Origin: Pandoraea sputorum
Lineage (GTDB): Bacteria; Pseudomonadota; Gammaproteobacteria; Burkholderiales; Burkholderiaceae
Direction: 5' to 3'
Length of the DNA stretch: 64,000 nt
Assembly: GCF_000814845.2 (NCBI RefSeq)
Contig: NZ_CP010431.2
Location: 1,116,001 to 1,180,000, forward strand
A model generated the notes under the pieces. The model saw nothing but the letters and a program-made list of their open reading frames with translations. It made no database searches and had not been told where the DNA came from. Of the stretch, positions 996 to 25,597 are shown piece after piece. The position numbers and the translations under genes were made by a program. Numbering within the stretch: the stretch's first letter is position 1; each line of letters begins with the position of its first letter.

Positions 996-2681
996 ATGCG
1001 TTTGATGAAAACGAACCGGCCGTGGCTGCGCTGGGCGGCAGTGTGCGCAGCCACGTTGGGGGGAACTGTTCATGGCGTTGCGATTGCTCAGCAAACCGAA
1101 GCAGCACAGCCGGATCCATCGCCTGCGGTAGCGCCGCAGGCAGGCGCACCGGCAGCAGACGGCGCGAAGGAGAAATCCGCCGACGCGCAAAAGCAAGTGA
1201 ACATCAACGAGTACATCGTGCGCGGTAACACCGTGCTCGACATCCGCACCATCGAGAAGGCTGTCACGCCTTATCTCGGGCCTAACCGCACGCTTGCCGA
1301 CATCGAAGCCGCGCGCGACGCATTGCTCGCTGCCTATCAGGCCAGGGGCTATCAGTCGGTGTACGTCGACCTGCCTGAGCAGCAGGTCACGGGCGGCATC
1401 GTCTATCTCAAGGTGAGCGAGACCAAGCTGGGACGTCTGCGCGTGGTCGGCTCGGAATATCACTCGCCGCGCGAAGTGCGCGAGCGTGTGCCGTCGCTGG
1501 CCGAGGGCAAGGTGCCTGACTTCAACGCCGCGCAGGCGGAACTCACGGCGCTGAACCGCACCGGCGAGCAGCAGGTCGTGCCGCTGGTGAAGCAGGGCGC
1601 AATGCCCGGCACGATGGACGTCGACCTCAAGGTGGAAGACACCAACCCGTGGCGCGCCAGCTTCAGCCTGAACAACGACCGCAGCGCCGACACGAAGCCG
1701 CTGCGCATGCTCGCCTCGCTCGGCTACGACAACTTGTGGCAAATGGGCCACCGTGTGTCGATGAGCTTCTTCGGCGCTCCGCAGGATTTCAAGCAGAGCA
1801 AGGTCTGGTCGGGTTCGTACGTCGCGCCGCTGGGCTCGTCGCCCTGGTCGCTCGAACTCAACGGCTATCAGTCGGACAGCAATGTCGCCACGACCGGCGG
1901 CACCACGGTACTCGGCAAGGGCCATGCGATCGGCCTGAAGACCACGTACACGGTGCCGGACACGGGCAGCTGGTATCACGCGTTCAGCCTGGGCGTGGAC
2001 TTCAAGGACAACACGGAAACCACGCGCTTCGGTACTGCGGGCGACGTAGTGCCGCTCAAATACGCCCCCATCACGCTGGGTTACAGCGGTTTCTATCAGA
2101 ACGAGAGCTTTCAAGCCGGTCTGAACACGTCGATCACGACCGGCATGTCGAGCTTCCTCGGCTATGGCAGCAGCCCGGCGCAGTTCGACGCGAAGCGCTA
2201 CAAGGCGTCGCCGAGCTTCACGGTGCTGCGCGCCGATGCGAACGGCACGTACACGATGGGCGGCGGATGGCAGCTGGCCGCACGCGTGGCCACGCAGATG
2301 ACCGACTCGCCGCTGGTCTCAAACGAACAGATCGCCGGTGGCGGCATGAACTCGGTGCGCGGTTACCTCTCGGCGGAAGCCACGGGCGATTACGGCGTGG
2401 TCGGCTCGATCGAATGGCGTACGCCGCCGATCCCGTTGCTCGCCCCGGTCGTCTCGAACTGGCGCGCGTACGCGTTCTTCGACGGTGCGCGTCTGGGCTT
2501 GCGCGATGCGCTGCCGGAGCAGACCTCGACGTATTCGCTGGCGTCGCTCGGTGTGGGCACGTCGCTGCGCCTCACGTCCCACGTGACGGGCCGCTTCGAT
2601 GCCGCGTGGCCGCTGACGAACGGCCCGCGTACCGAACGCTACCAACCGCGCTTCAACTTCAGCGTGACGGCGACTTACTGA
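996..2681 (+). CDS. TpsB-family outer-membrane transporter (ShlB/FhaC/HecB type)
   Basis: This 561-residue protein should form the outer-membrane pore that exports the giant TpsA-type partner at 11909-25597. A signal peptide covers about residues 1-31 (ending VAIAQQ). An Ala/Pro-rich linker to about residue 65 is followed by POTRA-type domains beginning VNINEYIVRGN and LGRLRVVGSEYHS, where the periplasmic domains recognise the secretion signal. From about residue 210 the protein has alternating beta-strand patterns ending in aromatic residues, as expected of a 16-strand barrel. SVRGYL near residue 452 is the conserved L6-loop motif of the Omp85/TpsB superfamily. Length fits the family. It heads an operon with ExbB/ExbD/TonB-like genes, unusual for TpsB proteins. 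The ribosome-binding site is weak for both ATG 996 and the in-frame ATG at 1005. No convincing TonB box is seen in the N-terminal linker. Confidence 0.92.
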   Translation: MRLMKTNRPWLRWAAVCAATLGGTVHGVAIAQQTEAAQPDPSPAVAPQAGAPAADGAKEKSADAQKQVNINEYIVRGNTVLDIRTIEKAVTPYLGPNRTLADIEAARDALLAAYQARGYQSVYVDLPEQQVTGGIVYLKVSETKLGRLRVVGSEYHSPREVRERVPSLAEGKVPDFNAAQAELTALNRTGEQQVVPLVKQGAMPGTMDVDLKVEDTNPWRASFSLNNDRSADTKPLRMLASLGYDNLWQMGHRVSMSFFGAPQDFKQSKVWSGSYVAPLGSSPWSLELNGYQSDSNVATTGGTTVLGKGHAIGLKTTYTVPDTGSWYHAFSLGVDFKDNTETTRFGTAGDVVPLKYAPITLGYSGFYQNESFQAGLNTSITTGMSSFLGYGSSPAQFDAKRYKASPSFTVLRADANGTYTMGGGWQLAARVATQMTDSPLVSNEQIAGGGMNSVRGYLSAEATGDYGVVGSIEWRTPPIPLLAPVVSNWRAYAFFDGARLGLRDALPEQTSTYSLASLGVGTSLRLTSHVTGRFDAAWPLTNGPRTERYQPRFNFSVTATY

Positions 2682-2769
2682 TCGACGAAATCAACCCAAC
2701 GACATTTACGACCTGATGCCTGGTGCGCTCACTCGAAGCGTCAGGCGGCATACACGGAGAACTACAGCC

Positions 2770-4542
2770 ATGCGACGCATTCTTCCATTCCTGCTTGCGC
2801 TGATCGGCACGCTGATGCCGGTGCTCGCGCACGCCTGGTGGCAACCGGATTGGGCGTACCGCAAGCCGATCACCATCGACGCCGGCCCGCAAGGCGGCAA
2901 CATCACGGGCGACGCCGGTCGTGTGCCGATGCTGCTGCGCCTGCACACCGGTAACTTCAGCTTCGAAGGCGTGAACGAGACCGGCGCGGACCTGCGCTTC
3001 GTCGCTGCCGACGACAAGACCGTGCTCAATCATCAGATCGAGCAATTCGATCCGGTGCTGGGCATCGCCCTCGTTTGGGTGGACGTGCCCGCGGTGACCG
3101 CTGCCAACAAGCAGCAAATCTGGATGTACTACGGCAACCGCAAGGCCCCGGCGGCCGGTAACGGTCAGCGCGTGTTCGACCCGGATTACACGGCGGTCTA
3201 TCACTTCGGCGAGCCGAACGTGCCCGCCCGCGACACGACCGCTTACGGCAACAACAGTCAGAACCCGGTCGTCACGCTCGACGGCGCGATCATCGGTCGC
3301 GGCATCCAGGCGGGCGCTTCGCCGCTCGTACTGCCTGCGTCGCCGTCGCTGTCCGTCGCGGCTGGCAGCAACTTCTCGTTCTCGGCATGGGTGCGTCCGG
3401 AAAAACTCGGCGCGAACGAAGGGATTTACACGCGTCGCGATGGCGGCAGCGATCTGCTCGTGGGTGTCGATCAGGGCGTGCCGTTCGTGCAGGTGGGAGG
3501 GCAGCGTAGCCAGCCGGGCCAGCCGATTCAGGCCGGTCAGTGGTCGCACCTCGCGGTGACGAGCGACGGCAAGACGGTGACGCTGTACGTTGCCGGTCAC
3601 GCGGCCGGTTCGGTCGCCGCAGCGCTGCCCGCGCTGAATTCGCCGACGATCATCGGTGGCGACGCCGATGGCGTGGCGGGTGGTCTGGCCCGCTTCTCGG
3701 GGGCCGTGGACGAAGTGCGTCTGTCGAAGGTGGCGCGTCCTGCTGCACTGATTCAGACGGACGCTGTCTCGCAAGGTGCCGAATCGCGTCTGATCGCCTT
3801 CGGTCCGGACGAACAGCAAGCGGGCAAGAGCCACTTCGCGTTCATCCTCGCGGCCATGCCGGTCGACGCCTGGGTGGTCGTCGTCTTGCTCGGCCTGATG
3901 GCGCTGGTGTCGTGGGTCATCATGATCACGAAGAGCCGCAGCTACAGCGCAAAGACGCGCGCCAACACCGTGTTCATGGAGCACTTTCGCCAGGCGTCGG
4001 GCGCGCCGCTCGATCAGATCGCGCGCACCCACCGCGTGCCTGAGGACGTGCGCGAACAATCGCCGCTGTGGCGCCTGTACGAAGTTGCGCTCGACGAACT
4101 GCACCGCCGCCACGAGCTCGGCTACGACACGAGCGCTGTCTCCGACGCGACCATCAGCGCCATTCGCGCGTCGATGGACGGCGTGATGGTGCGTGAAGTC
4201 GAAACGATGAGCAAGCGCATGAACTGGCTCTCGACCTCGATCGAAGGCGCGCCGTACGTGGGTCTGTTCGGTACCGTGATCGGGATCATGCTGGTGTTCG
4301 TCGTGGCGGCCATGGCCGGTGCGGTGGACATCAACTCGGTGGCCCCGGGCATGGCCGCAGCACTGCTGTGTACGGCGGCCGGTCTCGGCGTCGCTATCCC
4401 TGCACTGTTCGGCTACAACTGGCTGGTCTCGCGCTCGGACGCGCTGGCGGCCGACATGGCGGTATTCGTCGACGAGTTCACGACGCGCCTCGCGGAAGAG
4501 CAGGGCGAAGGCCGCCGTCAACCCGTGCTGCAGCGCGCGTGA
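2770..4542 (+). CDS. DUF2341/LamG-like domain fused to a MotA/TolQ/ExbB proton channel
   Basis: This is a 590-residue ExbB/TolQ-type channel with an extra periplasmic module. After a signal-like segment (ending VLAHAWW) comes a DUF2341 region starting WAYRKPITID. A concanavalin/LamG-like jelly-roll region follows at about residues 140-340, with FSFSAWVRP and WSHLAVTSDG signatures. A membrane helix lies near 366-388. The channel part carries GAPYVGLFGTVIGIM and APGMAAALLCTAAGLGVAIP, the two classic TolQ/ExbB pore-helix motifs, giving the usual three membrane passes. Such channels use the proton gradient to drive TonB. The start at 2770 was chosen over an upstream frame because ACGGAGAA precedes it and the signal segment follows. 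It sits 88 nt after tpsB-type and 12 nt before exbD. The LamG-like module may bind a glycan or the secreted partner; that is inference. Confidence 0.88.
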   Translation: MRRILPFLLALIGTLMPVLAHAWWQPDWAYRKPITIDAGPQGGNITGDAGRVPMLLRLHTGNFSFEGVNETGADLRFVAADDKTVLNHQIEQFDPVLGIALVWVDVPAVTAANKQQIWMYYGNRKAPAAGNGQRVFDPDYTAVYHFGEPNVPARDTTAYGNNSQNPVVTLDGAIIGRGIQAGASPLVLPASPSLSVAAGSNFSFSAWVRPEKLGANEGIYTRRDGGSDLLVGVDQGVPFVQVGGQRSQPGQPIQAGQWSHLAVTSDGKTVTLYVAGHAAGSVAAALPALNSPTIIGGDADGVAGGLARFSGAVDEVRLSKVARPAALIQTDAVSQGAESRLIAFGPDEQQAGKSHFAFILAAMPVDAWVVVVLLGLMALVSWVIMITKSRSYSAKTRANTVFMEHFRQASGAPLDQIARTHRVPEDVREQSPLWRLYEVALDELHRRHELGYDTSAVSDATISAIRASMDGVMVREVETMSKRMNWLSTSIEGAPYVGLFGTVIGIMLVFVVAAMAGAVDINSVAPGMAAALLCTAAGLGVAIPALFGYNWLVSRSDALAADMAVFVDEFTTRLAEEQGEGRRQPVLQRA

Positions 4543-4554: not shown

Positions 4555-4965
4555 ATGGCTAACGCAACGCGATTCGCTGCGAAGAAGCGCGCGGGTGGCA
4601 TCAACATCACGCCGTTCGTCGACGTGCTGCTGGTGGTGCTGGTGATCTTCATTCTCACGAGTAACGCCAGCATTCCCGGCATCAAGGTCGATCTGCCGAA
4701 GGCGAGCTCTTCGGTGGCGCTGGAGAAGCCGAAGACCAAGGCCATCACGGTCGACAACTCGGGGCAGGTGTTTCTCGATGCCTATCCCGTGACGCTCAAC
4801 GAGCTTGAGGATCGCTTGCGCACGGAAAAGGCAGTCACGCCCGACTTCCCTGTGATCGTGCGCGGCGACGCGCAGGTGCAGTACGCCAAGGTCGTGGAAG
4901 TGCTCGACCTGTTGCGTCGCATCGATCTCAATCAGGTCGGCCTCGTGACCGGCAAGCCGCAGTAA
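4555..4965 (+). CDS. ExbD/TolR-family biopolymer transport protein
   Basis: At 136 residues it has normal ExbD length. The N-terminal motif GGINITPFVDVLLVVLVIFI contains the family's essential membrane Asp (here Asp23), which carries protons in the ExbB-ExbD stator. The single membrane helix is followed by a periplasmic domain ending RRIDLNQVGLVTGKPQ, typical of the peptidoglycan-proximal ExbD fold. It lies 12 nt after the ExbB-type gene and 10 nt before the TonB-type gene, so the three probably form one energising complex. GGGGACGAATC before the ATG offers a modest ribosome-binding site. The family is secure; that it serves the neighbouring secretion system rather than iron uptake is inferred from context. 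Confidence 0.92.
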   Translation: MANATRFAAKKRAGGINITPFVDVLLVVLVIFILTSNASIPGIKVDLPKASSSVALEKPKTKAITVDNSGQVFLDAYPVTLNELEDRLRTEKAVTPDFPVIVRGDAQVQYAKVVEVLDLLRRIDLNQVGLVTGKPQ

Positions 4966-4975: not shown

Positions 4976-5716
4976 GTGAAACCTCGCGATTTCGCGTCTC
5001 GCCCCCCGCGCGGCCCGCTCCCCTCGGTTAAGTCGACGACTTCCAGCCCGGCGCTCGCGCTTTTGCGGCGTCGGGGCGGGCTGATCGTCGGTGCCGTCGT
5101 GGTCATCGGTCTGGCGGCGCTCTTCTGGCACCTGCTCACCGACAAGGCCAGCATGCGCCGCGAGGTCAACAGCCCGCCGATGCTCATGCTGCCTCCGCCG
5201 CCACCCCCGCCGCCGCCGCAGGAGAAGCCGCCTGAGCCAACGCCGGAGAAGGTCAAGCCGGAGGTCGTCGAGCCCAAGCCCGCCGATCCGGTCGAGCCGC
5301 CCAAGGACGACACGCCGCCCAGCCCGACCAAGGATCTGGGCGACGCCGTGACGATCAATGGCGACGCGCAGGCTGGCACCGATGCCTTCGGCATTGGCGC
5401 AGGCAGCGGCGGCGGCATGACCGGCGGTGGCGGTGGTCTGGGCAGCCGTTCGTACAGCGCCTGGCTCGCCAGCTCGTTGCAACAGGCGTTCGGTCGCGAT
5501 CAGCGCACCCGCACGCTCGCGTTCGACGACGTTCGCATCGATCTCTGGCTCGACGCCGACGGTCGTGCAACGCGTGTGCAACTGGTGCGCGGCACGGGCA
5601 GTTCGACCATCGACGAAGCGGTGCTCGCCATGCTGCGCGACTTCCGTGCGGAAGAGAAGCCGCCTGCGTCGTTGCGCTATCCGCTGGCCATGAGCATTCG
5701 GGGACGTCGCCCATGA
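4976..5716 (+). CDS. TonB-family energy transducer
   Basis: This 246-residue protein starts at a GTG preceded by AAGGAG at 6 nt. A cytoplasmic N-terminus of about 36 residues leads to one membrane helix (LIVGAVVVIGLAALFWHLL). A long Pro/Glu/Lys/Val region with a run of eight prolines follows, of the kind that lets TonB span the periplasm. After a Gly-rich hinge comes a C-terminal domain (YSAWLASSLQQAF to LAMSIRGRRP) with the spacing of TonB C-terminal folds, including DGRATRVQLVRGTGSSTID. Its role is to pass proton-motive energy from ExbB/ExbD to an outer-membrane partner. No TonB-dependent receptor is encoded nearby; the candidates are the TpsB-type pore and the Porin_5-like protein. The stop overlaps the next start (ATGA). 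Confidence 0.88.
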   Translation: MKPRDFASRPPRGPLPSVKSTTSSPALALLRRRGGLIVGAVVVIGLAALFWHLLTDKASMRREVNSPPMLMLPPPPPPPPPQEKPPEPTPEKVKPEVVEPKPADPVEPPKDDTPPSPTKDLGDAVTINGDAQAGTDAFGIGAGSGGGMTGGGGGLGSRSYSAWLASSLQQAFGRDQRTRTLAFDDVRIDLWLDADGRATRVQLVRGTGSSTIDEAVLAMLRDFRAEEKPPASLRYPLAMSIRGRRP

Positions 5717-7605
5717 CCGACATCACAAGCCACACCGTGCAAGCGGCCGACCGGGCTGAAGCAGACCATCCTTTTTACGCAAAAGTCACACACAAAATGA
5801 AAGCACTGGAACGTATGACTGACGGGGGCGCGCGCCGAGGGGCACCCCGTCGCGCCGCCGGTACGGCGGGCGCCGTCGCACTGGCGCTCGCCCTGCTGGG
5901 CACCGCGGGACTCGCGCAGGCGCAAGCCCAGGCCGCACCGCAAGACACCGCAATGGTCAAGCTCATTCGCGGCCTGATCAAGAGCGGCGCGATCGACAAG
6001 GCCACCGGCGAAGCGCTGCTCGCGCAGGCCGAGACCGAAGCGTATGCGGCGTCGCAAGCGGCGCAGAAGTCCGCCGCAGCCGCCCCGGCGGGCGCTGCCG
6101 TGGCAGGTGCCGTAGCCGGTGCCGGTTTTGCCGCCGAGCCTGGCGACGTGCGCATTCCGTACATCTCCCAGACCACGCGCGACCAGATTCGCGACGAGGT
6201 GAAGAACGAAGTCATGGCGCAAGCCAAGTCCGAAGGCTGGGCCGCCCCGAACGAAACGCCGGAGTGGACCAAGCGCATTCACATCGAGGGCGACTTCCGT
6301 CTGCGTAACGAATCGCGCTTCTACTCCAGCAGCAACACGAACACGCAGATCGACTGGGCGCAGATCAACAAGGGCAATGGCTTCGACGTCAACTCGAACA
6401 CCAACCTCGCGCTCCCGCCGCTGCTCAACACCACGCAGAACCGCACCAATCAGTTCCGTGCGCGCGCACGCTTCGGCATCTTCGCCGACGTGTCCGAGCA
6501 GGTGAAGGCCGGTGTGCGTCTGGCGAGCAGCAACGACGACAGCCCGGTCTCCACCAACAGCACGCTGGGCGGTGGTCTGAACAAGAAGAGCGTCTGGCTC
6601 GATCAGATGTGGATGTCGTACCAGCCGTTCACATGGATGAAGGTGACAGGCGGTCGCTTCGCACCCCCGTACGTCACGAGCGACATGCTGTTCTCGAGCG
6701 ACCTGAACATCGACGGCATCGCCGCACAGTTCAACAAGGCGCTGCCGACGAACCCGAACGTCGAACTGTTCGGCTCGCTGGGCTTCATCCCGCTGGAATA
6801 CTCGGGCGACAACTCGCCGTCGAACAGCCAGAGCAAGATGTCGAGTCAGACGAAGTGGATGCTCGGCACGCAGTTCGGCGCGAACTGGAAGCTCGACTCG
6901 AAGAACAGCTTCCGTGGCACGGTCGGCTACTTCGACTTCCGCAACATTACGGGGCAGCTGTCGTCGCCGTGTGCGCTGTACGCGGGTCAGACGAGCTGCG
7001 ATTCGGACTGGTCGCGCCCGGCGTTCATGCAAAAGGGCAACACGCTCATGCTGCTGCGTAACATCGCGCTCAATCCGCTCGATCCGGCCAACACCGCGCA
7101 GCCGCAGTACGTCGGCTACGCCTCGAAGTTCCAGTTGCTCGATCTGTCGGCGCGCTGGGATACGGTGCTCGCAGGTCGCTACCCGCTGCGCTTCGACGTG
7201 AATTACATCCGCAACCTGGCCTACAACGAGGGCGAGATGTGGGCGCGCTCGAACGGCGGCATCGTGAACAACTTCGCGGCGGGCTCAGCCACGCGCGCGA
7301 ACTTCAAGAGCGGTCCGAACGCGTACATGTTCCAGGCGACCTTCGGTAAGCCGGTCATGGCTGCGCGCGGCGACTGGAACGTGCTGTTCGGCTACAAGCG
7401 TATCGAGCCGGATGCTGTGCCCGATGCATACAACGATTCGACGTTCCACGGTGGCGGTACGAACGCGAAGGGGTACTACCTGGGCGGTTCGTACGCATTC
7501 GACAAGAACGCCTGGATCACGGGCCGCTGGTTGTCGACGAAGGAAGTCTACGGTCAGCCGTTGTCGATCGACACGCTGCAAATCGAAGTCAACGCGCGAT
7601 TCTAA
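5713..7605 (+). CDS. Putative outer-membrane porin (Porin_5-like)
   Basis: The 630-residue product has a signal peptide (hydrophobic segment ending LAQAQAQA) and a short helical region with a possible coiled coil (KLIRGLIKSGAIDKATGEALL, residues about 78-98). A beta-barrel-like body starts at KRIHIEGDFRLRNESRFY. The body has many aromatic, amphipathic strands (FRARARFGIFADVSEQVKAG and WMKVTGGRFAPPYV are typical) and ends with an aromatic residue (VNARF), as barrels assembled by Bam do. This matches the 'putative porin' family often found beside TPS and TonB clusters. I chose the ATG at 5713 because it overlaps the TonB stop. An internal ATG at 5797 would give a more ordinary signal-peptide length and is a real alternative. 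Substrate unknown. Confidence 0.8.
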   Translation: MTDITSHTVQAADRAEADHPFYAKVTHKMKALERMTDGGARRGAPRRAAGTAGAVALALALLGTAGLAQAQAQAAPQDTAMVKLIRGLIKSGAIDKATGEALLAQAETEAYAASQAAQKSAAAAPAGAAVAGAVAGAGFAAEPGDVRIPYISQTTRDQIRDEVKNEVMAQAKSEGWAAPNETPEWTKRIHIEGDFRLRNESRFYSSSNTNTQIDWAQINKGNGFDVNSNTNLALPPLLNTTQNRTNQFRARARFGIFADVSEQVKAGVRLASSNDDSPVSTNSTLGGGLNKKSVWLDQMWMSYQPFTWMKVTGGRFAPPYVTSDMLFSSDLNIDGIAAQFNKALPTNPNVELFGSLGFIPLEYSGDNSPSNSQSKMSSQTKWMLGTQFGANWKLDSKNSFRGTVGYFDFRNITGQLSSPCALYAGQTSCDSDWSRPAFMQKGNTLMLLRNIALNPLDPANTAQPQYVGYASKFQLLDLSARWDTVLAGRYPLRFDVNYIRNLAYNEGEMWARSNGGIVNNFAAGSATRANFKSGPNAYMFQATFGKPVMAARGDWNVLFGYKRIEPDAVPDAYNDSTFHGGGTNAKGYYLGGSYAFDKNAWITGRWLSTKEVYGQPLSIDTLQIEVNARF

Positions 7606-7614: not shown

Positions 7615-8439
7615 ATGAGCCAACAGCCCCCGCGCGCGGTGTCGCGTCTGACCTCGGGCGCCAAGGTCACGGCAGCGGCGATGCTGCTCGCCGTGAGCTC
7701 GGCCGCGCTGGCGCAGACGCCGCAGGGCGCGCCGACGATGGAAGAGCGTCTGCGCACGCAACTGCGCACGACGACCGAGCAGCTTCAGCAGGCGAAGAAC
7801 GAACTCGCGGCGCTCAAGGCCGGTGGTGCTACCGCTGGTGCATCGGGTAGTGCGGCTAGTGCAGGTAATGCGGGCAAGGCCAGCAAGGATTCGCCCGAAG
7901 CACTGCGCAAGCAACTGGACGACGCGCAGCAGCAGTTGACGGCGGAGCGTCAGTCGCGTGAGCGTCTGGCGCAGGACGCCCGCGCCTCGCAGTCGGAGGT
8001 GAAGACGATTGCCGACAAGGCCAACACGCAGATCTCGCAGTATCGCAACGCGTACGACGAACTGCTCAGGCTCGCGCGTCAGGCCGATGCACAGCGCAAG
8101 CAGCTTGCCGAGGAGACTGCCGCACAACGGGCCGCGCTCAAGCTTGCGCAAGAGAAAAACGATCGTCTGTATGCCGTCGGTCAGGAAATCCTGACGGCCT
8201 ACGAGACGATGGATGTGGCGACGATTGTGGCGGCACGCCAGCCGTTCGCAGCGCAGGCACGCGTGAAGTACGAGCAGATCGCCCAGCAGTACGGGGACAA
8301 GCTCTACGAGGGCAAGTTCGACGAACAGCAGGCGATGGCTGCCGCGTCGGCCAAACCGGCACCGCAAGCAGAGCAGGCAGCACAGCCCGCCCCGTCGGCT
8401 CCGGCTGACGCAGTATCAGATATCAAAAACGGACGTTGA
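7615..8439 (+). CDS. Exported coiled-coil protein of unknown function
   Basis: A textbook AAGGAGG lies 4-5 nt before the ATG. The 274-residue product has a signal peptide (AAAMLLAVSSAALAQT). A helical, heptad-rich stretch follows (about residues 42-66 and 95-185, e.g. EERLRTQLRTTTEQLQQAK), interrupted by a Gly/Ala/Ser spacer. The C-terminal part (AVGQEILTAYETMD, ARVKYEQIAQQYGDKLYEGKFD) is also helical, then an Ala/Pro-rich tail. It resembles periplasmic scaffold or chaperone-like proteins, but I recognise no named family. It sits 9 nt after the porin-like gene in the same operon, so it may help assemble or tether the envelope complex; that is inference. Confidence 0.75.
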   Translation: MSQQPPRAVSRLTSGAKVTAAAMLLAVSSAALAQTPQGAPTMEERLRTQLRTTTEQLQQAKNELAALKAGGATAGASGSAASAGNAGKASKDSPEALRKQLDDAQQQLTAERQSRERLAQDARASQSEVKTIADKANTQISQYRNAYDELLRLARQADAQRKQLAEETAAQRAALKLAQEKNDRLYAVGQEILTAYETMDVATIVAARQPFAAQARVKYEQIAQQYGDKLYEGKFDEQQAMAAASAKPAPQAEQAAQPAPSAPADAVSDIKNGR

Positions 8440-9057: not shown

Positions 9058-9151
9058 AGCGTCGCCGCGCGGCGCATCAAGCGCGTTTTCCTCTCGAGCC
9101 TGGGGACCTTCCCGCGCGGCAGAATCACGTCCAGCAGACGACTGGTTGGCC

Positions 9152-9194: not shown

Positions 9195-9290
9195 CTTTGA
9201 GAAGGCGATCCTGCGCATTGTCAAAGCATCGTCACAATCGCACACGAGAATTGTCAGGAATTCTTACAAATCATTAGTGGATCAACGGGG

Positions 9291-17900: not shown

Positions 17901-20900
17901 TCACGTCCGCAGACACGTTGCGTAAGTACTCGCAGTACAACGAGATGAGCTACGCCGATTTCGCGCGGGCCGCGTCTGCCCGCGACGGTGTCCCCCGCTC
18001 GCTGATCGAGGCGGATGCAAAGCGTCTCGACTTCTATTTCCTGCCGCGCAGCTATTTGGGGGCAATCGATGGACTTCCCTCACTGCGCTTCGAAGGCCGC
18101 GCCGACGTCACGCACGGCAAGGACGGTTACGGTGCCAGCGTTCTCGTCGGCTCGCCGTCCGGCGGTAGCTTCGAAATTCTCGGCGCGAATGCCAGACCCA
18201 CGGTGGGCGATAACGGGTTGGTGTCGCTCTATGCCAAAGACTTGAACGCAATCGGTGCGGCGCGACTTGCGATCGGCGCGCTGCCTGAAGTGCTCAAGGG
18301 CACGGGGGGCTCGCTGGAGGCCGCCACGGCAACGTTCGATCTCATCGGTCGCGGCAGCGTGTACGACGTCGTGCTGCGCGGCGACGCTGTGTTGCGGGCG
18401 GGCGAGGTGTTCATCGTCACGCGGGCGCCTACGCGCGGCATCACCATTGAGCAGGGCAGCGGCATCAACACGCTCGGCTATGGCATGCAGATGTGGGATG
18501 CGTCGACCGGCTTTACCTACGCCCCGGGCAAGGCCGGTGTACTGGCTGTGTCCAACGGTCGCCTTGCGATGCTCGCGCCGACCCCGACGACGACTGCCGA
18601 CTCGTTTGGTTCGGGCTACATCGATCTGGGGGTCTGCACGGCAGGCGCTGCATGCTCGGGCGAGTCGTTACTGCTGTCCGAGGGCTCCATCGCCGTAGCA
18701 ACGGATAAGCGTTTCACGATCACCGATGCCGTGCGCTACGGCACGCGTCAACTGTCGCTCTCGGTCGGGCGGGTGAACGTGGGCGAGCAGGCTTCGCTCG
18801 ACGCGCTGGCGGCGTCCGGGAAGCTTGCGCAGGGGCTGACCCTCAATCAACCGGTGCTGTCGCGCCTGCTGCGCGGCGACACTGTGTACGGCGCACCGGC
18901 GCTGCAAAGCCTGTCGCTCATCGCCCGCGATTCGATCAATTTTTACGATTCCGTCGAACTGTCCACCATCGACGCGACGACCGGCAAGTCGAGCATCGAC
19001 ACGCTCGTGCTCGGCACGCCCGCGATCTTCGGCTACGGATCGAGCGATGCGCTGGCGCGCATTCGCACCGATCGGCTGGTGTGGACCGGCTCGAAGGACC
19101 CGGCGAGCAGTGTGGTCGCTGGCGGCGCGGGGACCGGCAGCGGTCGGTTTGCGATCGATGCGCGGGAGATCGAGTTCGGTTTTGGGCCCGCCACGCAGCC
19201 CGACGTCAACAACGCCATGAATCGTCTGGCGGTCGGGTTCTCGACGGTCGAGCTCAAGGCGAGCGAACGTGTTACCGCCAATCAGAAGGGCAGCCTGTCC
19301 GTCTATCGCTCGCAAGACGGCTGGAACGACCGGACGCACGCCTATGACTACCGCGGCGGCGATATCGTCATCGATACGCCGATACTCACGGGTGCGGCGG
19401 GCTCGGTCAATCGCTTCAATGCGGGCGGCAACATCACGGTCGCCAATGCAAGCGCCCGGGCGAAGTCGGCGGTTGGTAACGACCAACTGGTGGCCGCGCT
19501 CGGCGCGGAAGTCGGGCTGAAGTCCGGCGGCGCGACGCACATCGACACTAACGTCGTGCTGCCGAGCGGCCGCCTGCGCGTGGACGCGGCCGGTGACGTC
19601 ACGCTCGGCGATGGCGCACAACTCGATCTCGCAGGACGCAAGCTCCAGTTCTTCGACGCGACGAAATACAGCTGGGGCGGCGACGTGTTGCTGTCCAGCG
19701 AGCAAGGCGGCGTGCGTCAGGCAGGCGGCTCGGTCATCGATCTGTCCGCCGTAGAGAACCGCGCGGGCAAGCTGTCCGTGACGGCCGTAGGCCCGACCGG
19801 CGGGGAGGTCTCGCTCGCAGGCAAGTTGCTCGGCAGCGCAACGGGCGTGTACGACGCCGGTGGCACGCTGGTCCCGTTCAGCGCGGGCGGCATTGATGTT
19901 CGTGCGCAGCGCATCGATGGCTTTACGGCATTGAACTCGCGTCTGAGCGAAGGTGGCGTGTTCGGCAGCCGCAGCTTCCAGATCAAGCAAGGCGATCTCG
20001 TCGTCGGCGACGAACTCAAGGCACGCGAAATTACGCTCTCGGTCGACGGTGGACGGCTCGATATCGCCGGACGGGTGGATGCGAGCGGCAAGCAGGTGGG
20101 GAGCATCCGGTTGTCGGCGCGCGACGGTGTGAACATCGGCGGTAATGCAACGCTCGACGCACACAGCACCACGCTTCGACTGGATAGCTACGGTCAGCCT
20201 ATCGAGGCGTCGAACCGTGCCGTTGTCGAAATCAACGGCGGTGACGGGCGGGTCGTGCTGGCCGATGGCGCGCGTATCGACGTACGCGCAGGGACGAACG
20301 GCGCGGCGCTCAATGTCGGCACCGTCGAGATCAGCGCCAGGCGGCTGGGGGCGAACGGGGCGGGCAATGCGACGGGTAACGACATTGCCATCGATGCAGG
20401 CGGCAACGTTGTGATCGATGGTGCCCGTTCGATTACCGTGAACGGCATGCAGCGCGATGCCAATGCGCGTCCGGGGACCGACGTTTCGGTCGACGGCCGC
20501 CCGTATCAGATCATCGATCAGGCATATCTCGACACGCTGCACGGACAGAACGAGACGTTCATGTCCAATGCGCTGGCCAACGGCGCACTGCTCGCGCGAC
20601 TCGCGGGTCTGCGTCGCCATACGGACGCCTTCCATCTGCGACCGGGCGTCGAAATCGTGAGCGCTACGCCAGAGGGCGATCTGCACATCGATGGCGACAT
20701 CGACATGTCTCGCTATCGCTACGCGAGCCTGAATCCGAACACGCAGAAGACCGGCGTGTACGGCAGCGGCGAAGCCGGGGCGCTGACCATTCGTGCGGGT
20801 GGCAATCTCGAAGTGTTCGGCAGCGTGAACGACGGCTTCGACACGAGCAAGCTGACTGCGACGTCTTCGGACAACAAGGGCTGGGTGCTTACCAGTGGCA

Positions 20901-23900
20901 AGGCTGGCTGGGGCGGCGACGCCGTGGTGCCCGTCGGCGGTCTTGTCACGCTCGCAGCAGGGACGACGTTCCCGGCGCAGCGACAACTCAACTACGACAT
21001 CTCGATCGAAGCCAGCACGCTGCCGGGCGGCACACGTTTGCCGGGGCAGGCGACATTGACGGCCGATCTGACCTTCCCCGCAGGCACGGTGCTGGGCGGT
21101 GCGGTGCGCGATGCCTCCGGCAACGTGGTGTACGCGGCGGGTTCGGTGCTCACGTCGAGCGTGACGCTCACTCGTGACATGAAGCTGGACGCTGGCGTGC
21201 TGTTGCCAGGTGACGCGTCGGTGGCCGCCATGGTGTGGCCCGCAGGAAAGGTCCTGCCCACGACCTTCGTGCTGGCCAGCGATCTGGCGATGAAGAAGGG
21301 CGCGATTATTCCGGCAGAAGCCTCGGTCAAGCTGCCGAACGGTGTGACGTTCGTCAACGTGCGCCCCGCTGATGCCGACGGGATTCAGGGACAACTGCTT
21401 GCGCTCGCGCCGATGCTGCAACCGGGATCGGCCTCGTGGTCGATGCGGCTGGTCGCGGGCGCGGACACGACAGCCGCCGATCCGCGAGCGTTGCGCGCGT
21501 CCGCCACGAACGGCCATCTGGTGCTCTCGGATACGCATTACGGGATGGGGGAAAAATCGGTGCAGATCCCGGGCACAGGAACACCCGGTGTGTATCGTTG
21601 GGGAAGTGATGCAGGGTGGTACTTCGGCACGAATCCGGGGGATCCCATCACTGCGCAGGAGCTTGCGGACTACGGTATCCACTCCGACGCCGATGCGGAC
21701 TTCTGGAACACTATCGGCGACATGATTCAGATCGTCACACCGGGAATTCCTGCGCAATACGAGATGAAAGCCAGCCCGGCGCGTGAGCCGATTTTCAGCG
21801 TGGTGCGCACCGGCACGGGTGATCTCGACATGCTCGCTGGCGGAAACTTCACCATGAATTCGCCGTACGGCGTTTATACGGCGGGCACGCAATCGCGAGA
21901 TGTAGCGGCCGCTTATAACCTGGCCCGTGCCACGTTGAAGAACGCGGCGGTGCTGGGACCGGACGGCGGCGAGTTCGAAAAATTCGTCGACGGCAAGGCG
22001 CAAAGCCTTTATTCGGCCTGGTATCCGGAGCACGGCGGCAATCTCTTCGTGCGTGCGCAGGGCGACATTCGTGGCGATACGATCGGCACGTCCGATAGCT
22101 ACATTCGCCCGAATGCGACGGGGTTCGGCAACCCGCGTCAGGTCGTCGATTCCGGTAACGTCGGTGGCTGGCTGTGGCGGCAGGGCTCTGGTTCGGCGAT
22201 TGCGACGGGGGGTGTGCCGACCGCATGGTGGGTGAATTTCGGCACCTATACGGTGGGCAAACAGAGCGGTTCCGCCGAGTTCGAAACGGCACCGTTCCTG
22301 CAAGGCTTCACCGGGCTTGGAACGCTCGGCGGTGGCAACGTCGTGCTTGAGGCGGGCGGCGACGCGGGCATGCTCGAATCGCGGATGGGACCGGGGAATA
22401 GCGAAGGCCCACGTGCGCTGGCGCGAAGCGAGGGCCTGAACGTCTCTGTGGCCAGTACCGGTCGTGTCTCGGCCGATGGCTCGCAGATCGTACTCACCGG
22501 TGGGGGCGATCTTGACGTGCGTATCGGCGGCGGCCTGAATCCGGTGCGCGAAGTTCGCGCCATCGCACAGACCAACAGCCCGATTACCGATCTGTCCACG
22601 TGGCGTATCGGCAATCTCGCACTGAACGGAACGTTCACCAACCTGCGGGGCGCGACACGTGTTGAGGCCGGAGCGCTGGGTGGGTTCGACGCCATCTTTG
22701 GCGGCACCGACATGAGCGAGTCGCGCGCACGCGATCCTTATGTCGCCGAACGTGGCATCGGGACCGGTGGACCGTCGCTCGTGCTGGGCGACTCAACGGC
22801 CCGAATCGACACGCGTGGCGATCTGGTGATCGGCGGTTACGGCGATGCCACGCGCACGCAGCAACGAAACAACGGGACTCCGTTCTCCGTGAACGGCACT
22901 TCGTACTCCGGCGAGGGCATCAGTTGGTTCACGCTCTGGACGCCGTCGACCGCCATCGATCTGTTCAGCGCTGGCGGGAATCTGGTGCCGATCACGGCGT
23001 TGGGGGATCGTAGTCGTGCGGGCATGAACTATTCGTCGACCGACGGGCGCTTCGTGTTGCCCGCCACGTTGCGTGCTGTGGCAGCCAGCGGGAGTATCTT
23101 CAACGGCTACTCGGCGACGGGCATTCTTGGCGAAGATTCCTTGCCGTCCCGTGGCGACACACCGGTATTGCTGGCGCCGGAGCCGGTCAGTTCCCTGTTC
23201 AAGGTCACTGCCGACGGCGGCGCGCTGGAGATGATTGCGGGCAAGTCGTTGTATGGTTCGGGCTACGCGCTCAGCCGCTCGGCGGCGGATCCGACAGCCT
23301 TGCCCACTGCACAGAATCCTGCGTTCGCGGGCGGAGTGCTCGCCACCTGGTTCGGTCGTAAGTTCCTGACCAACGTCCGACAAGACGCATTGGCGCCGGA
23401 TTTCATGCTGTTCGCCTATAGCCAGGATTCGCTCACTCGTTTCCCCATGTTCAGCCTGACACCGGCGACCGTTTCGGGGTACGACTTCAGCGGCATTGCG
23501 CCCGCACGCTTCTACGCGCTGACCGGCGACATCGTCGGCCTTCAGACCGGGGGCATCAACTATCGCGGAACCGTCTTGCCGCAACCCGGTACGGAGCCGA
23601 ACTGGTACGAAGGCAACGGGGCGGTCGCCATCCGGGCGGGCAGAGACATCGTCAACTCGGGCACGCCGCTCGGGACGTTCCTCTCGACTAACGGCAATTT
23701 CGCTGGCTGGTACACCATTCCGGACTTCCAGGATCCGGTGAACAATCCGGGCAGACCGCAACCGAGAGGCAGTGCAACGACACGGGGCAACCTGATCGTT
23801 CAGAACTCGCCGGAAGATATTTCCGTCGTTTCGGCCGGACGCGATATCCGATATAGCTCGTTCTACGTGGCCGGTCCGGGCTTGCTCGAAGTGACGGCCG

Positions 23901-25597
23901 GACGCGACATTCTCCTGGCCGACAAGGCCGAGCTGCGCAGCCTCGGGGCGCTGACCAACGTCACTTCGGGCGACCGGAGCAGCGGTGCCGGGATTGCCGT
24001 GGCGGCGGGGGTCGGTCCGAAGGGGCTCGATGGCATCGACTTCAAGGCGTTCGCGGCTCGTTATCTCGATCCGGCGAATCTTGCCGAAGCGGGACGTCCG
24101 TTCGCCGATCAGCCAGGTAAGGCGGTCGTGGTGTATGGCGGTGAGATGACGTTGAGTGGCTGGCTGAAACAGGCGTTTGGCTATAGCGGGGATGCGAGCG
24201 GTGCCGAGGCCTATCTCGTCAACAAGCAAGCCGAACTTGATGCTGCGAGCAAAGCTGCGGGGAGTGCCGGGGCTGTTGCCAGGCGCGATCTGCGAAACGA
24301 GTACGCTCAGCAAAGCAATCTGTATCTCGTGAACTGGCTGACCCGGCGTTTTGGCGATGCGACGGTGCGCTTCGGTCAGGGTGTGCATTTCGATGCGGCG
24401 TCGATGGATGCGCGTCAGTTCTTCGACGCGCTTGCACCGGAGCAGCAGCGTGCCTATTTGCGCGATGTCTATTTCGCCGAGTTGCGCGCGTCCGGCCGGG
24501 AGTACAACGACGCGAGCGGTCCGCGCGTGGGCAGCTATCTGCGCGGTAGGGAAGCCATTGCGACCTTGTTCCCGACGACCGACGCCTCGGGCGCGGCACG
24601 GCAGTACGACGGCGATCTGACGATGTACAGTAGCGCGGCGTATTTCCTCCAGAACATGAATCGTGTGTCGACGACGCGTCCGCAGGCGGGGGTGAAGTAC
24701 TTGACGCAGGCGCAGTGGATCGCCCGTGGGAGCCCATCGACGGGTGTGCCGCACTACGAAGTGCAGGATGCCGGGATTCATACGGACTTCGGTGGCGGCG
24801 TGAGCGTTCTTGCGCCGGGTGGGCGAACGCTCGTCGGTGTGGATGGCGGGTTCGTGCCGGAAGAGGGCTCGGGGATTCTGACGCAGGGCAGGGGCAACGT
24901 CGAACTGTATTCGCTCGACAGCGTTCTGCTGGGGCAGAGCCGTATCTTCACGACGTTCGGCGGCCACATCCTGGCGTGGTCGGCGCAAGGCGATATCAAC
25001 GCCGGTCGCGGCTCGAAGTCCACCGTCGTCTATACGCCGCAACGCCGGGTGTATGACGGACTCGGAATTGTTTCGCTTTCGCCGACCACGCCGAACACGG
25101 GAGCTGGCATTGCGACGCTGGCGCCGATCCCCGAGGTGCCGCCGGGCGACATCGACCTGATCGCGCCGTTGGGAACCGTAGACGCGGGCGAGGCCGGGAT
25201 TCGGGTGTCGGGTAACGTGAACGTTGCGGCATTGCGTGTGATGAATGCCGAGAACATTCAGGTGCAGGGCAAGTCGGTGGGCATCCCAACGGTCGCTGCC
25301 GTCAATGTCGGTGCACTCACGAATGCGAGCGCGACGGCGGCGCAAGCGGCGTCGGCCGCTCAGGAGGCGATGGCTCGCGATCGGGCGGCATCGAGGCAGA
25401 ACCAGTCGTCCATTTTTAGCGTGCGCATGCTGGACGCCGGGGCGCAGACCGACAGCACGGGCAAGCCGCGTGCGGATACCGGCAAGATGTTCCGCTACGA
25501 TCCTGCGTCGCCTGTGCAGGTGGTTGGCCAGATGAATCTGTCCGAGTCCCAGTTACAGGCGCTGACCCCGACGGAACGGAAGAACCTGATGCGTTGA
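11909..25597 (+). CDS. Giant filamentous-haemagglutinin-type TpsA exoprotein with C-terminal DUF3739-like region
   Basis: This single frame encodes 4562 residues. The signal peptide (MRKRVASSSP to AHAQQ, about 46 residues) has no obvious ESPR extension. The TPS secretion domain spans about residues 120-330: LNWETFNVGRRTTVEF, WAVLNRVND, SQIQGQIKADGTVVIVNRNG and VDTRNLVAAAVG match the FHA N-terminal domain, with VNRNG at the usual NPNG position. The rest is a long beta-helix-like repeat body rich in Gly, Asn and short strands. Two unusual segments rich in PAG/PGG turns sit near residues 1031-1190 and 3013-3155. The C-terminus (about 4345-4470; FGGHILAWSAQGDINAGRG, GDIDLIAPLGTVDAGEAG, NVNVAALRVMNAENIQVQ) matches DUF3739. 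Only two Cys occur (residues 2243 and 2249). I found no CdiA-like toxin tip, so adhesion or biofilm function is more likely than contact inhibition. The start at 11909 is chosen for the signal peptide; an ATG at 11804 is in frame. The partner pore is encoded at 996-2681. Confidence 0.93.
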   Translation: MRKRVASSSPSVPSLPLRVLRIRPLAQAVAVFAASSAMIGAAHAQQAFSNAWFAARGAAQSTAAQTGRLPNGMPVSSLQNPGEQQQRANQALQNSIANLATAAQGIAAMQAAQTAARQAAAASPETIPDGLAEGGLKVDTNSLTAGWINAKKDIAQSRDTAGNTNVKIEQTGEKAILNWETFNVGRRTTVEFAQQPGWAVLNRVNDPNARPSQIQGQIKADGTVVIVNRNGIQFTGTAQVDTRNLVAAAVGMTNDQFNRGIYGTALAGVTVPTFANDLNVTGSGFSHTGATANVVVDAGARINTRKPQSVTEGGGYVLLLGREAHNRGTIVTPSGQTVIAGGDAFVIRRGMGTDGNPNSSTRGNEVTPSLLAGSTAGRVSNSGLILSTLGDITLTGRQVDQSGVLVSSTSVNTRGTIHLTASGDTNAQVKFAPGAVSAILLDTAGDTALDVQRSSLLADTAKVAESGLYNRRDQSLVQVVSSGDVLFDSDSLTLATGGQINVAATRRMVATARAKLDVSGAVGVQVAMASNNVEVNVQGNEQRDAPTNRDSALLNNQTLFIDRRYLVRVPAGTQGFTTDRWYTAGGLLEVSGYLNTAQHGVGEWAAQGGTVQLGGAEVVTRAGSLINLAGGTLDVQTGMIRQSWLRGDDGQLYRADNAPGDLRYLGVYRGFEVAHTRWGKGRTESYATPFIAPGERLENGYTVGRDAGRLVVSSLSAVLEGDVDTSVYQGPRQTQAADRGLYDGYLQSQLAAPRAGQFIVGRITPYYDDVALALRDSPSALVRTIDVGSVQALAADSALDAAIDPKRAGKISLDADWINRQNFGAVKLMATERLTLDGDLRVADGGDVGLHATRVELNANVTARGGVIAAGNILNQMLTSTANGVWTDMPVADTAIVGGEQYVKVAGGATLDARGLWRRADDGEAGIHGLPYVNGGNVQLSSSGDVRLLPGSVVDVSSGAALLSNGTVRGGKGGSVSLLASQYDLDGKRHGEVQVDGTLRAYGVNGGGTLKLDTGNGVVIGSVGLQTAGWLAPGESVPFNVMLLEDYTIKAGTVAPVDYKQTISRVMPGQTLTTAPAITADAPVTLAADWTVPAGASGTFFAYAPSGRSYSSGQVVPAGTVIVRSFGTVAPGYVLPGNVFPEGIPVVPYNVVAKAGTPLPFDVTLAKGDVVPVGLTVTQKVRVASPTVLSADIFSTGFSRYDVTGQLGVSVADNAHLNVVMPVLYADKQAAQAAASGSDPSRVLRTYLPPVWQSDAAKGTVTQRGGADLALNAGTVYKRAPLVVGEGARIDVDPGRSIALTGNDQITLLGGLYAASGNVSLLRGAFGTGNEVDRPDGAFTARSIWLGSHSVIDVAAQPFVAQDASGAYNGRVAAGGTIQIGAKYTHGATKVDAADAFVIVRPGAKLDASGASADVDVPGQGRTHVTSNGGVISLASARGLYLDGEMIAASGGAGAAGGTLNLVLETLAYAPVDRLTLKGAGVEDAVRVAHEMVVAQTQGPGTLSDTLTAGAVGGGLAMGTARIGVDRVKAGGFDNLALLANGMIDFDGSVDLSLGQSVRLTANSFGLAANAALGSVVKIAAPYVQLAGATRTQGENEIMPNAVVGSKNQGQGGGALGLPAQDRNAKFEVDASIIDLSGPMQFGTAGTIETNTAPIEVRRLAFGDVALRSRGDLRLLDKTTFYVPGDLTLAAAQIYPVSEATATIVVGQRTYVNEQWLTNEIRFDPERKLTIERVGNALPAQPYSLFGNLTIAAPQILQGGVLRAPMGTITFGTTSNLQTIGLLRLLPGSVTSVSAAGLTMPLGGSLDGLSYLNAGADAKYALAGAGPTIAVYAHSVGVDDGAVIDLSGGGEIRGAAFLSGRGGSVDARLSPLMQVVQTGNKASFTLPSLSSNPVYAIVPGAQSAYAPIVGDNGAGAPLIGQQITIGNGVPGLPAGTYTLLPSTFALLPGAYRVELQPGTTAPTGLAPLSMRNGSLALSAQLSVNDTGIRSATPTRAVLTSADTLRKYSQYNEMSYADFARAASARDGVPRSLIEADAKRLDFYFLPRSYLGAIDGLPSLRFEGRADVTHGKDGYGASVLVGSPSGGSFEILGANARPTVGDNGLVSLYAKDLNAIGAARLAIGALPEVLKGTGGSLEAATATFDLIGRGSVYDVVLRGDAVLRAGEVFIVTRAPTRGITIEQGSGINTLGYGMQMWDASTGFTYAPGKAGVLAVSNGRLAMLAPTPTTTADSFGSGYIDLGVCTAGAACSGESLLLSEGSIAVATDKRFTITDAVRYGTRQLSLSVGRVNVGEQASLDALAASGKLAQGLTLNQPVLSRLLRGDTVYGAPALQSLSLIARDSINFYDSVELSTIDATTGKSSIDTLVLGTPAIFGYGSSDALARIRTDRLVWTGSKDPASSVVAGGAGTGSGRFAIDAREIEFGFGPATQPDVNNAMNRLAVGFSTVELKASERVTANQKGSLSVYRSQDGWNDRTHAYDYRGGDIVIDTPILTGAAGSVNRFNAGGNITVANASARAKSAVGNDQLVAALGAEVGLKSGGATHIDTNVVLPSGRLRVDAAGDVTLGDGAQLDLAGRKLQFFDATKYSWGGDVLLSSEQGGVRQAGGSVIDLSAVENRAGKLSVTAVGPTGGEVSLAGKLLGSATGVYDAGGTLVPFSAGGIDVRAQRIDGFTALNSRLSEGGVFGSRSFQIKQGDLVVGDELKAREITLSVDGGRLDIAGRVDASGKQVGSIRLSARDGVNIGGNATLDAHSTTLRLDSYGQPIEASNRAVVEINGGDGRVVLADGARIDVRAGTNGAALNVGTVEISARRLGANGAGNATGNDIAIDAGGNVVIDGARSITVNGMQRDANARPGTDVSVDGRPYQIIDQAYLDTLHGQNETFMSNALANGALLARLAGLRRHTDAFHLRPGVEIVSATPEGDLHIDGDIDMSRYRYASLNPNTQKTGVYGSGEAGALTIRAGGNLEVFGSVNDGFDTSKLTATSSDNKGWVLTSGKAGWGGDAVVPVGGLVTLAAGTTFPAQRQLNYDISIEASTLPGGTRLPGQATLTADLTFPAGTVLGGAVRDASGNVVYAAGSVLTSSVTLTRDMKLDAGVLLPGDASVAAMVWPAGKVLPTTFVLASDLAMKKGAIIPAEASVKLPNGVTFVNVRPADADGIQGQLLALAPMLQPGSASWSMRLVAGADTTAADPRALRASATNGHLVLSDTHYGMGEKSVQIPGTGTPGVYRWGSDAGWYFGTNPGDPITAQELADYGIHSDADADFWNTIGDMIQIVTPGIPAQYEMKASPAREPIFSVVRTGTGDLDMLAGGNFTMNSPYGVYTAGTQSRDVAAAYNLARATLKNAAVLGPDGGEFEKFVDGKAQSLYSAWYPEHGGNLFVRAQGDIRGDTIGTSDSYIRPNATGFGNPRQVVDSGNVGGWLWRQGSGSAIATGGVPTAWWVNFGTYTVGKQSGSAEFETAPFLQGFTGLGTLGGGNVVLEAGGDAGMLESRMGPGNSEGPRALARSEGLNVSVASTGRVSADGSQIVLTGGGDLDVRIGGGLNPVREVRAIAQTNSPITDLSTWRIGNLALNGTFTNLRGATRVEAGALGGFDAIFGGTDMSESRARDPYVAERGIGTGGPSLVLGDSTARIDTRGDLVIGGYGDATRTQQRNNGTPFSVNGTSYSGEGISWFTLWTPSTAIDLFSAGGNLVPITALGDRSRAGMNYSSTDGRFVLPATLRAVAASGSIFNGYSATGILGEDSLPSRGDTPVLLAPEPVSSLFKVTADGGALEMIAGKSLYGSGYALSRSAADPTALPTAQNPAFAGGVLATWFGRKFLTNVRQDALAPDFMLFAYSQDSLTRFPMFSLTPATVSGYDFSGIAPARFYALTGDIVGLQTGGINYRGTVLPQPGTEPNWYEGNGAVAIRAGRDIVNSGTPLGTFLSTNGNFAGWYTIPDFQDPVNNPGRPQPRGSATTRGNLIVQNSPEDISVVSAGRDIRYSSFYVAGPGLLEVTAGRDILLADKAELRSLGALTNVTSGDRSSGAGIAVAAGVGPKGLDGIDFKAFAARYLDPANLAEAGRPFADQPGKAVVVYGGEMTLSGWLKQAFGYSGDASGAEAYLVNKQAELDAASKAAGSAGAVARRDLRNEYAQQSNLYLVNWLTRRFGDATVRFGQGVHFDAASMDARQFFDALAPEQQRAYLRDVYFAELRASGREYNDASGPRVGSYLRGREAIATLFPTTDASGAARQYDGDLTMYSSAAYFLQNMNRVSTTRPQAGVKYLTQAQWIARGSPSTGVPHYEVQDAGIHTDFGGGVSVLAPGGRTLVGVDGGFVPEEGSGILTQGRGNVELYSLDSVLLGQSRIFTTFGGHILAWSAQGDINAGRGSKSTVVYTPQRRVYDGLGIVSLSPTTPNTGAGIATLAPIPEVPPGDIDLIAPLGTVDAGEAGIRVSGNVNVAALRVMNAENIQVQGKSVGIPTVAAVNVGALTNASATAAQAASAAQEAMARDRAASRQNQSSIFSVRMLDAGAQTDSTGKPRADTGKMFRYDPASPVQVVGQMNLSESQLQALTPTERKNLMR

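Follow-up and report, generated by a model that had tools for sequence, protein, structure and literature searches.

A window of 64,000 nucleotides from the genome of Pandoraea sputorum (contig NZ_CP010431.2, positions 1,116,001 to 1,180,000; G000:C1:1116001-1180000) holds, on its + strand, a gene cluster for two-partner secretion (TPS) with its own ExbB-ExbD-TonB (Ton) motor, a Porin_5 protein, a giant DUF3739 exoprotein (TpsA), and a signalling unit of an STN protein, an extracytoplasmic function (ECF) sigma factor and a FecR anti-sigma factor. Comparison across genomes points to the motor as a near-constant component of the DUF3739 branch of TPS, through a near-obligatory linkage that is new here. 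The locus is, by its gene content, a PUMA3/PdtAB-type TPS system in a Pandoraea species, a kind already known; the main interest lies in the near-constancy of the motor and its plausible client, rather than in this locus. The first-pass annotation of the window had supposed that similar clusters may exist in other proteobacteria; they do, and it had missed that one has been known in Pseudomonas aeruginosa since 2009 as PUMA3/PdtAB (PMC2729926). According to Llamas et al. (2009), vreA-vreI-vreR of P. aeruginosa controls the TPS genes, exbB2-exbD2 and PA0696-0699, and PUMA3 homologues with TPS, ExbBD and PA0696 homologues occur in Burkholderia vietnamiensis, Rhodopseudomonas palustris, Janthinobacterium and pseudomonads; two of these organisms show a fourfold repeat (PMC2729926).

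Genome comparison shows a core, defined by gene content, of TpsA(DUF3739), TpsB, ExbB(DUF2341), ExbD, TonB and Porin_5, often with a coiled-coil protein, which is present together or absent in nearly all sampled genomes. Among 369 genomes of the class, DUF3739 was found above cut-off in 23 and DUF2341-ExbB, counted when the match spanned both the DUF2341 and the ExbB parts of the query, in 22; the overlap was 21 of the 23, versus 1 of the 346 genomes without DUF3739. The two misses are a genome that is 64% complete (G200) and one in which tpsA reaches the contig end (G101), and the extra genome (G104, 85% complete) has its exbB close to the start of an 8.6 kb contig; G223, with a sub-cut-off DUF3739 match and without DUF2341-ExbB, was placed among the 346. 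Porin_5 at full length (460 bits or more, with 119 for the match that came next) was present in 24 class genomes, namely the 23 with DUF3739 and G104. In a sample of 299 genomes of the phylum, DUF3739 occurred in nine and the ExbB relative in 9/9 of these versus 0/290 others, the match in G670 covering only the channel part at a contig start; G000, G107 and G274 are positive in both the class and the phylum samples. Within the genus (32 genomes), ExbB was found in 17 of 18 DUF3739 genomes, one copy each, versus none of the other 14, and the DUF3739 match of the eighteenth (G376) is a short remnant with an internal stop. These counts are given without a P value, since the sampled genomes are related by descent. 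Chance or strain-specific neighbourhood is ruled out by the co-occurrence in all three samples, and the first-pass view that the motor belongs with the TPS genes is borne out.

The gene-neighbourhood search of DUF2341-ExbB with DUF3739 TpsA that the first-pass annotation had proposed gave the same answer at the level of gene order. In the named loci (best 80 of 109 confirmed; 20 genus labels; 20 loci from Stenotrophomonas, including [Pseudomonas] hibiscicola), the distance from tpsB to the exbB that follows it never exceeds 163 bp (80 of 80). Phmmer matches were obtained for TpsB in 80, ExbD in 79, TonB in 77, Porin_5 in 75, the coiled-coil protein in 58 and YbjN in 56, and the order exbD, tonB, porin_5 after exbB is kept except at contig ends; for the coiled-coil and YbjN genes there was no phmmer match in most Stenotrophomonas loci though the contig continues. 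STN matches number 35, of which 26 are VreA-like and nine are Stenotrophomonas receptors or pieces cut by the locus end, and counts of sigma and FecR genes in these loci include the receptors' own. The module also occurs on plasmids. With sigma and FecR genes it lies on the conjugative IncFIB plasmid pKqq_SB98_1 of Klebsiella quasipneumoniae (L212), in a stretch that ends before any STN gene, and with an STN gene on a Methylosinus plasmid (L213). The Klebsiella module ends with PpiC and LysR genes near an ars operon, the Methylosinus locus has a short second TonB-like protein upstream of its STN gene (L213 9643-9948), and a DUF2341-ExbB relative occurs on 11 PLSDB plasmids, one from Klebsiella pneumoniae. 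A PpiC-type rotamase gene like PA0699 follows the operon in nine genus labels of the named loci (e.g., L126 15436-16398); no PpiC-type gene was found between ybjN and vreA in the window. In the Stenotrophomonas-type locus L056, the stretch from the vre genes to tpsA contains genes for type II secretion (Pfam GspG, GspK, GspE) together with two that are PstS-like, of which one was confirmed as PBP_like_2.

Open reading frames, Pfam and NCBIfam confirmed the gene cluster of the first-pass annotation in full, every gene lying on the + strand with tight spacing. The operon begins with tpsB (996..2681), a PdtB-like outer-membrane pore of the Omp85-type found in type Vb systems, with POTRA domain and ShlB barrel (Pfam ShlB 87 bits, POTRA_2 60 bits). 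It is followed by the ExbB2-like DUF2341-LamG-ExbB hybrid (2716..4542; Pfam DUF2341, Laminin_G_3, MotA_ExbB), whose lectin-like part is N-terminal to the channel; this gene is single in the 5.74 Mb single-contig genome G000, to which all own-genome counts refer, and its product is 91% identical to ExbB of Pandoraea sp. SD6-2. The last membrane stretch of ExbB reads PGMAAALLCTAAG in 58 relatives, pattern counts here being unclean; at the corresponding stretch Escherichia coli ExbB presumably carries a glutamate (PG.AEAL). The ExbD2-like exbD (4555..4965; Pfam ExbD 105 bits) keeps the membrane aspartate (N-I-T-P-F-V-D), which the pattern finds in 100 of 103 relatives. The TonB4-like tonB (4976..5716, GTG start) encodes a family-specific glycine-rich linker and a C-terminal domain (CTD, ~5450-5668) that is above the NCBIfam tonB_Cterm cut-off and matches Pfam TonB_C/TonB_2 weakly, below the curated cut-offs. 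A complete Ton motor is thus present, with ExbB, an ExbD bearing the membrane Asp, and a TonB CTD for which Pfam TonB_C itself stays sub-cut-off. Porin_5 (5713..7605; Pfam 614 bits), an outer-membrane barrel that is PA0696-like by position and 98% identical to Porin_5 of P. commovens (L128), precedes a coiled-coil protein with a signal-peptide-like start and sub-cut-off Pfam matches (7615..8439, PA0697-like by position) and a PA0698-like YbjN-domain protein (8458..9057; Pfam YbjN 38.7 bits). The signalling genes are vreA-like (9291..9992; STN ~9471-9623, 36.7 bits; TonB-like CTD ~9681-9926), vreI-like, for the ECF sigma factor (9993..10508; Pfam Sigma70_r2, Sigma70_r4_2), and vreR-like, for FecR (10585..11640, start taken from the translation; Pfam DUF4880, FecR). 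The PdtA-like tpsA (11804..25597) encodes a giant filamentous-haemagglutinin (FHA) exoprotein of 4,597 codons from the first ATG or 4,562 from the ATG at 11909, with an N-terminal TPS/FHA domain (NCBIfam adhes_NPXG 69 bits) and DUF3739 at ~24959-25291 (130 bits). The gaps upstream of the STN gene (9058-9290) and of tpsA may be promoter sites. Downstream of tpsA lies a complete rRNA operon that includes two tRNAs (window 26240-31456).

A possible client of the motor is Porin_5. Just before its barrel, linked Porin_5 proteins carry a strand and a helix-like stretch, [DE]VRVPY[IV][PS][EQ]..(R/K)..I, which in the window reads D-V-R-I-P-Y-I-S (6145..6168, + strand, by pattern). A first pattern with a final Pro matched 55 of 98 linked Porin_5; a relaxed pattern, chosen after viewing the misses, matched 97 of the 98 and was absent from 41,718 residues after the barrel start, the sole miss being an ORF in L080 that starts within the barrel. 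The strand was found nowhere in the protein in any of 17 unlinked Porin_5 examined (14 genomes plus paralogues in G150, G262 and G314), taken from the 30 genomes and four paralogues without a linked motor in the class sample, and the three genomes with a strand-less paralogue also carry a linked copy. Among the plasmid copies, the Klebsiella Porin_5 has the strand. Because it is present only with a dedicated TonB, we regard the strand as a candidate TonB contact, TonB-box-like and non-canonical, through which Porin_5 may serve as receptor or client. Pfam reported no plug family in the window Porin_5, and PDB sequences held no convincing relative of it (a pilin construct came nearest, at E 0.0066). 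We also considered whether TpsB has an N-terminal TonB box and set this aside, as the pre-POTRA region looks unconserved in 20 aligned TpsB sequences. The first-pass statement that no receptor is present has to be qualified in view of the Porin_5 strand, which may be the TonB contact, and of the TonB-like second domain of the STN protein.

The signalling genes stand in a looser relation to the core. Among the 29 other genomes with the module, VreA with both domains was found in just six (G643, G589, G521, G670, G274, G545), so it is an add-on. Within the genus, 50 of 54 tpsA are paired with a same-strand vreA, located 13.7-15.7 kb upstream of DUF3739, and the number of vreA equals that of tpsA in 15 of 17 genomes, with one to six tpsA and a single exbB per genome. 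(Of the 56 genus DUF3739 rows, the remnant in G376 and a weak second piece in G377 were set aside to give the 54; before pairing, all rows of the VreA profile weaker than 1e-40, which are receptors and TonB CTDs, were dropped.) The genome of the window has a second vreAIR-tpsA at ~3.79-3.81 Mb, and no tpsB or motor match was found in the 60 kb around it. Since vreA pairs with tpsA, exbB is single and the second locus is motor-less, one machine would serve several TpsA, each with its own switch. Membership of the STN, sigma and FecR genes in the same core, as the first-pass annotation had it, is thus not supported; in the genus, vreA accompanies tpsA rather than the motor.

Profile searches in both directions show that the VreA CTD is closest, in sequence, to this operon's own TonB, which is also new here. 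The VreA profile (A2, 30 sequences) reached the module TonB CTD in 17 of 17 genus module genomes (E 8e-9 to 2e-6). In those 17 it reached no other TonB at E<=1e-5, the remaining matches being VreA itself and STN parts of long, receptor-size frames; canonical TonBs are present in the surveyed genus genomes except G371. In 29 further genomes it gave 23 CTD-only matches, 22 at the module TonB (assigned by coordinates or by its place beside its ExbB or Porin_5) and one at a paralogous trio in G136, and no CTD-only match in G101, G107, G249, G521, G545 and G670. On a panel of loci, 98 of the 100 linked TonBs passed E<=1e-3 with the VreA-CTD profile (at a median of 30 bits) versus none of 34 other TonB_C loci (best E 0.002), a thirty-fifth being the window's own TonB. 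In the reverse test, a linked-TonB profile found all 30 VreA at E<=1e-3; as it also scored L159 at 34 bits and three others at ~21 bits, the linked TonB family is not an isolated one. Stenotrophomonas-type VreA matched Pfam TonB_2 at 3.7e-4, below cut-off. The 2009 model, in which the VreA CTD is nearest TolA, was rejected, since the VreA-CTD profile reported the operon TonB and not L159 of this genome (TolA by eye). Two cysteines of VreA (window 9291-9992), C144 and C227, are invariant in 30 aligned relatives and could form a disulphide; a truncated receptor is ruled out by the TonB-like second domain with its two invariant cysteines. The simplest history suggested by these matches would be that VreA arose when an STN domain became fused to a copied tip of the system's own TonB.

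The best reading of these sequences, which we hold tentatively and with a little less than even confidence, is a Ton-coupled machine for two-partner secretion whose signalling unit is split. The dedicated motor would act on the outer membrane through Porin_5, its TonB pairing with the strand [DE]VRVPY[IV] just before the barrel, and would power a step in TpsA display, be it export, completion or release; one TpsB/Porin_5 machine would serve every such TpsA of the cell. VreA would be a detached signalling domain, whose STN part binds FecR and whose TonB-derived part docks on the motor client, so that sigma activity tracks the state of the export machine, with the vreA promoter under phosphate control. 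STN domains on their own can bind anti-sigma factors and protect them (PMC11637429), which would let VreA act as a brake. We consider it fairly unlikely, though worth stating, that the whole DUF3739 TpsA branch is Ton-powered and that VreA is a split transducer, a signalling domain that parted from its receptor, acquired a copied tip of the system's TonB and now competes with TonB for the Porin_5 (or TpsA) strand, the cell reading motor-client engagement as a measure of secretion.

Several observations weigh against this Ton-coupled machine. The Porin_5 strand is unlike the post-STN TonB-box region in 20 genus receptor fragments (LPTTHVTA, APVEVTA etc.), and since DVRIPYIS is thus not a canonical receptor box, its role as TonB contact is a matter of inference; in L147, an unlinked homologue, FVPPENVK partly resembles the strand, in its second half, and the Methylosinus sequence KHVSYVPE fails the pattern. 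The VreA profile missed the module TonB of G107 and G249. As for the idea that one TpsB would serve all TpsA, a lack of tpsB and motor genes was seen at a single locus, the second of this genome. In P. aeruginosa, sigma-VreI promoters were at wild-type level in a vreA deletion under low phosphate (PMC4971064), and vreA deletion left virulence in zebrafish embryos unaffected (PMC7035377); such a neutral deletion argues against a large role for VreA in the conditions used. A tonB-homologue mutant of P. aeruginosa likewise kept its virulence (PMC2729926), and reconstitution of type V transport in liposomes has succeeded with no external energy supply (PMC5422565).

Phosphate control, finally, is as compatible with nutrient uptake as with export. 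A phosphate box at vreA and PhoB control have been described in P. aeruginosa (PMC4971064). Upstream of vreA in the window there is a weak pho-box-like site (9218..9235, + strand) with five mismatches to CTGTCATnnnnCTGTCAT, not significant alone, the best match within the whole window having three; similar pre-vreA sequences in five Pandoraea loci (L115, L117, L119, L121, L123) have two to four, and the second vreA of the genome has a perfect CTGTCATnnnnCTGTCAT upstream. At most three mismatches were found in 10 of 26 named vreA upstream stretches, many of which are close relatives, versus 63 of 3000 random stretches. An uptake system, in which surface TpsA captures a (perhaps phosphorus-containing) substrate and Porin_5 is the Ton-energised importer, as HxuA and HxuC do for haem-haemopexin, would fit the PhoB control and these boxes, the type II secretion and PstS-like PBP_like_2 genes by the Stenotrophomonas-type locus, and the Porin_5 strand with its link to TonB; the TPS pair HxuA/HxuB has its operon in common with HxuC, a TonB-dependent transporter (PMC5422565). 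We nevertheless regard uptake as somewhat unlikely, because tpsB and the motor lie in a single operon, one exbB goes with as many as six TpsA in a genome, and Porin_5 shows no reported plug family.

The energy-free reconstitution and the virulent tonB-homologue mutant also favour mere co-regulation, in which an outer-membrane step unrelated to TPS, but required under the same (phosphate-poor) conditions, is what the motor energises while TPS export needs no energy. So do DUF2341-ExbB/ExbD/TonB trios without adjoining TPS genes, found at L043-L045 (44051-46895 of the joined G119 stretch), L031-L032 (G136) and L046-L047 (G150); one of these adjoins type II secretion genes (by eye) and a short TPS-domain protein (Pfam TPS), and two adjoin V/A-type ATPase subunit genes (by eye). 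The co-occurrence of motor and DUF3739 TPS, however, spans many families, plasmids and three proteobacterial classes, with and without vreA, and is so broad that co-regulation in a single condition is hardly expected; we judge this account quite improbable.

TpsA itself offers a second strand. Relatives carry, near the C-terminus, the motif PS[VLIT][FI][TSQ]V[RKQ][VI][LI]G[FY]G, present in 55 of the 56 TpsA rows that come from named loci (37 by pattern and 18 from Stenotrophomonas reading VISVQILGFG; the 56th is a fragment without a C-terminus) and in all 18 complete C-termini from the other genomes of the class (three by eye only), often at the very end; 45-63 residues follow it in the 37 pattern matches. 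At the corresponding position (25406..25441, + strand) the window has a degenerate S-S-I-F-S-V-R-M-L-D-A-G, and the motif is degenerate in both TpsA of this genome (SVRMLDAG, TVRMLGAS). As genomes that lack VreA also keep the strand, its partner should be TonB, Porin_5 or TpsB, and a ligand of VreA only is disfavoured. The notion that TonB holds or pulls TpsA by this strand, keeping the giant protein attached until release, draws on that conservation and on alternating hydrophobics like those of a TonB contact, and is the least probable of the alternatives, given that the strand is degenerate here despite an intact TonB, is followed by 45-63 residues, and could equally contact TpsB or Porin_5.

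The energy source for type V secretion of giant proteins is described as an open question (PMC5422565), and the exbB2-exbD2-tonB4 motor has been termed "still uncharacterized" (PMC7035377). In searches of open-licence papers we saw no test of an exbB2/tonB4-type motor in TPS export, and no paper on DUF3739. A TPS subclass with a near-constant proton-driven motor would make the energy question approachable by one deletion, and exbB2-exbD2-tonB4 of P. aeruginosa gain a candidate partner in the PA0696 porin. DUF2341-ExbB proteins, which have an extra domain that a 2025 study names as of unknown function (PMC12505986), gain a context, and a possible origin emerges for VreA, a puzzling protein.

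Textbook TPS systems need no energy input. With FhaB/FhaC and CdiA/CdiB the window shares a TpsB with POTRA and ShlB barrel and a TpsA with an FHA N-terminal domain; it differs in having a dedicated Ton motor, Porin_5, and DUF3739 plus a C-terminal strand on TpsA. The STN protein is homologous to the solved signalling domains of FpvA, FemA, PupB and FecA, and shares with FpvA/FecA/FoxA-type TonB-dependent transducers a homologous STN domain and ECF sigma and FecR partners. Its STN domain is fused to a TonB-like domain and not to a plug and barrel; in its 233 residues STN is the sole Pfam family reported, with no plug and 22-strand barrel, so that it is not such a transducer. HxuABC of Haemophilus has a canonical receptor, not a Porin_5. 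As proposed here, its TPS exoprotein acts with a TonB-dependent outer-membrane protein of one operon; it is described as a three-gene operon, with no ExbB/ExbD/TonB of its own named (PMC5422565). In P. aeruginosa the genes run pdtB, exbB2, exbD2, tonB4, porin, PA0697, YbjN, PpiC (PMC7035377), and VreA is described as mostly soluble and probably periplasmic, with an STN and a TolA/TonB-like C-terminal domain and without a barrel (PMC2729926). We compared the P. aeruginosa system through these published descriptions, the equivalence of PA0697 being one of position. The window differs from PUMA3/PdtAB (PA0674-PA0699) in that tpsA lies directly 3' of vreR, without Hxc type II genes or phdA between them, in having no PpiC gene after ybjN, and in the weakness of its vreA pho box, the perfect box being at the second vreA of the genome. 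It shares with PUMA3/PdtAB vreA-vreI-vreR, TpsA and the operon pdtB-exbB2-exbD2-tonB4-porin(PA0696)-PA0697-YbjN(PA0698) in the window's order, as well as a barrel-less STN protein with a TolA/TonB-like CTD encoded beside ECF sigma and FecR genes.

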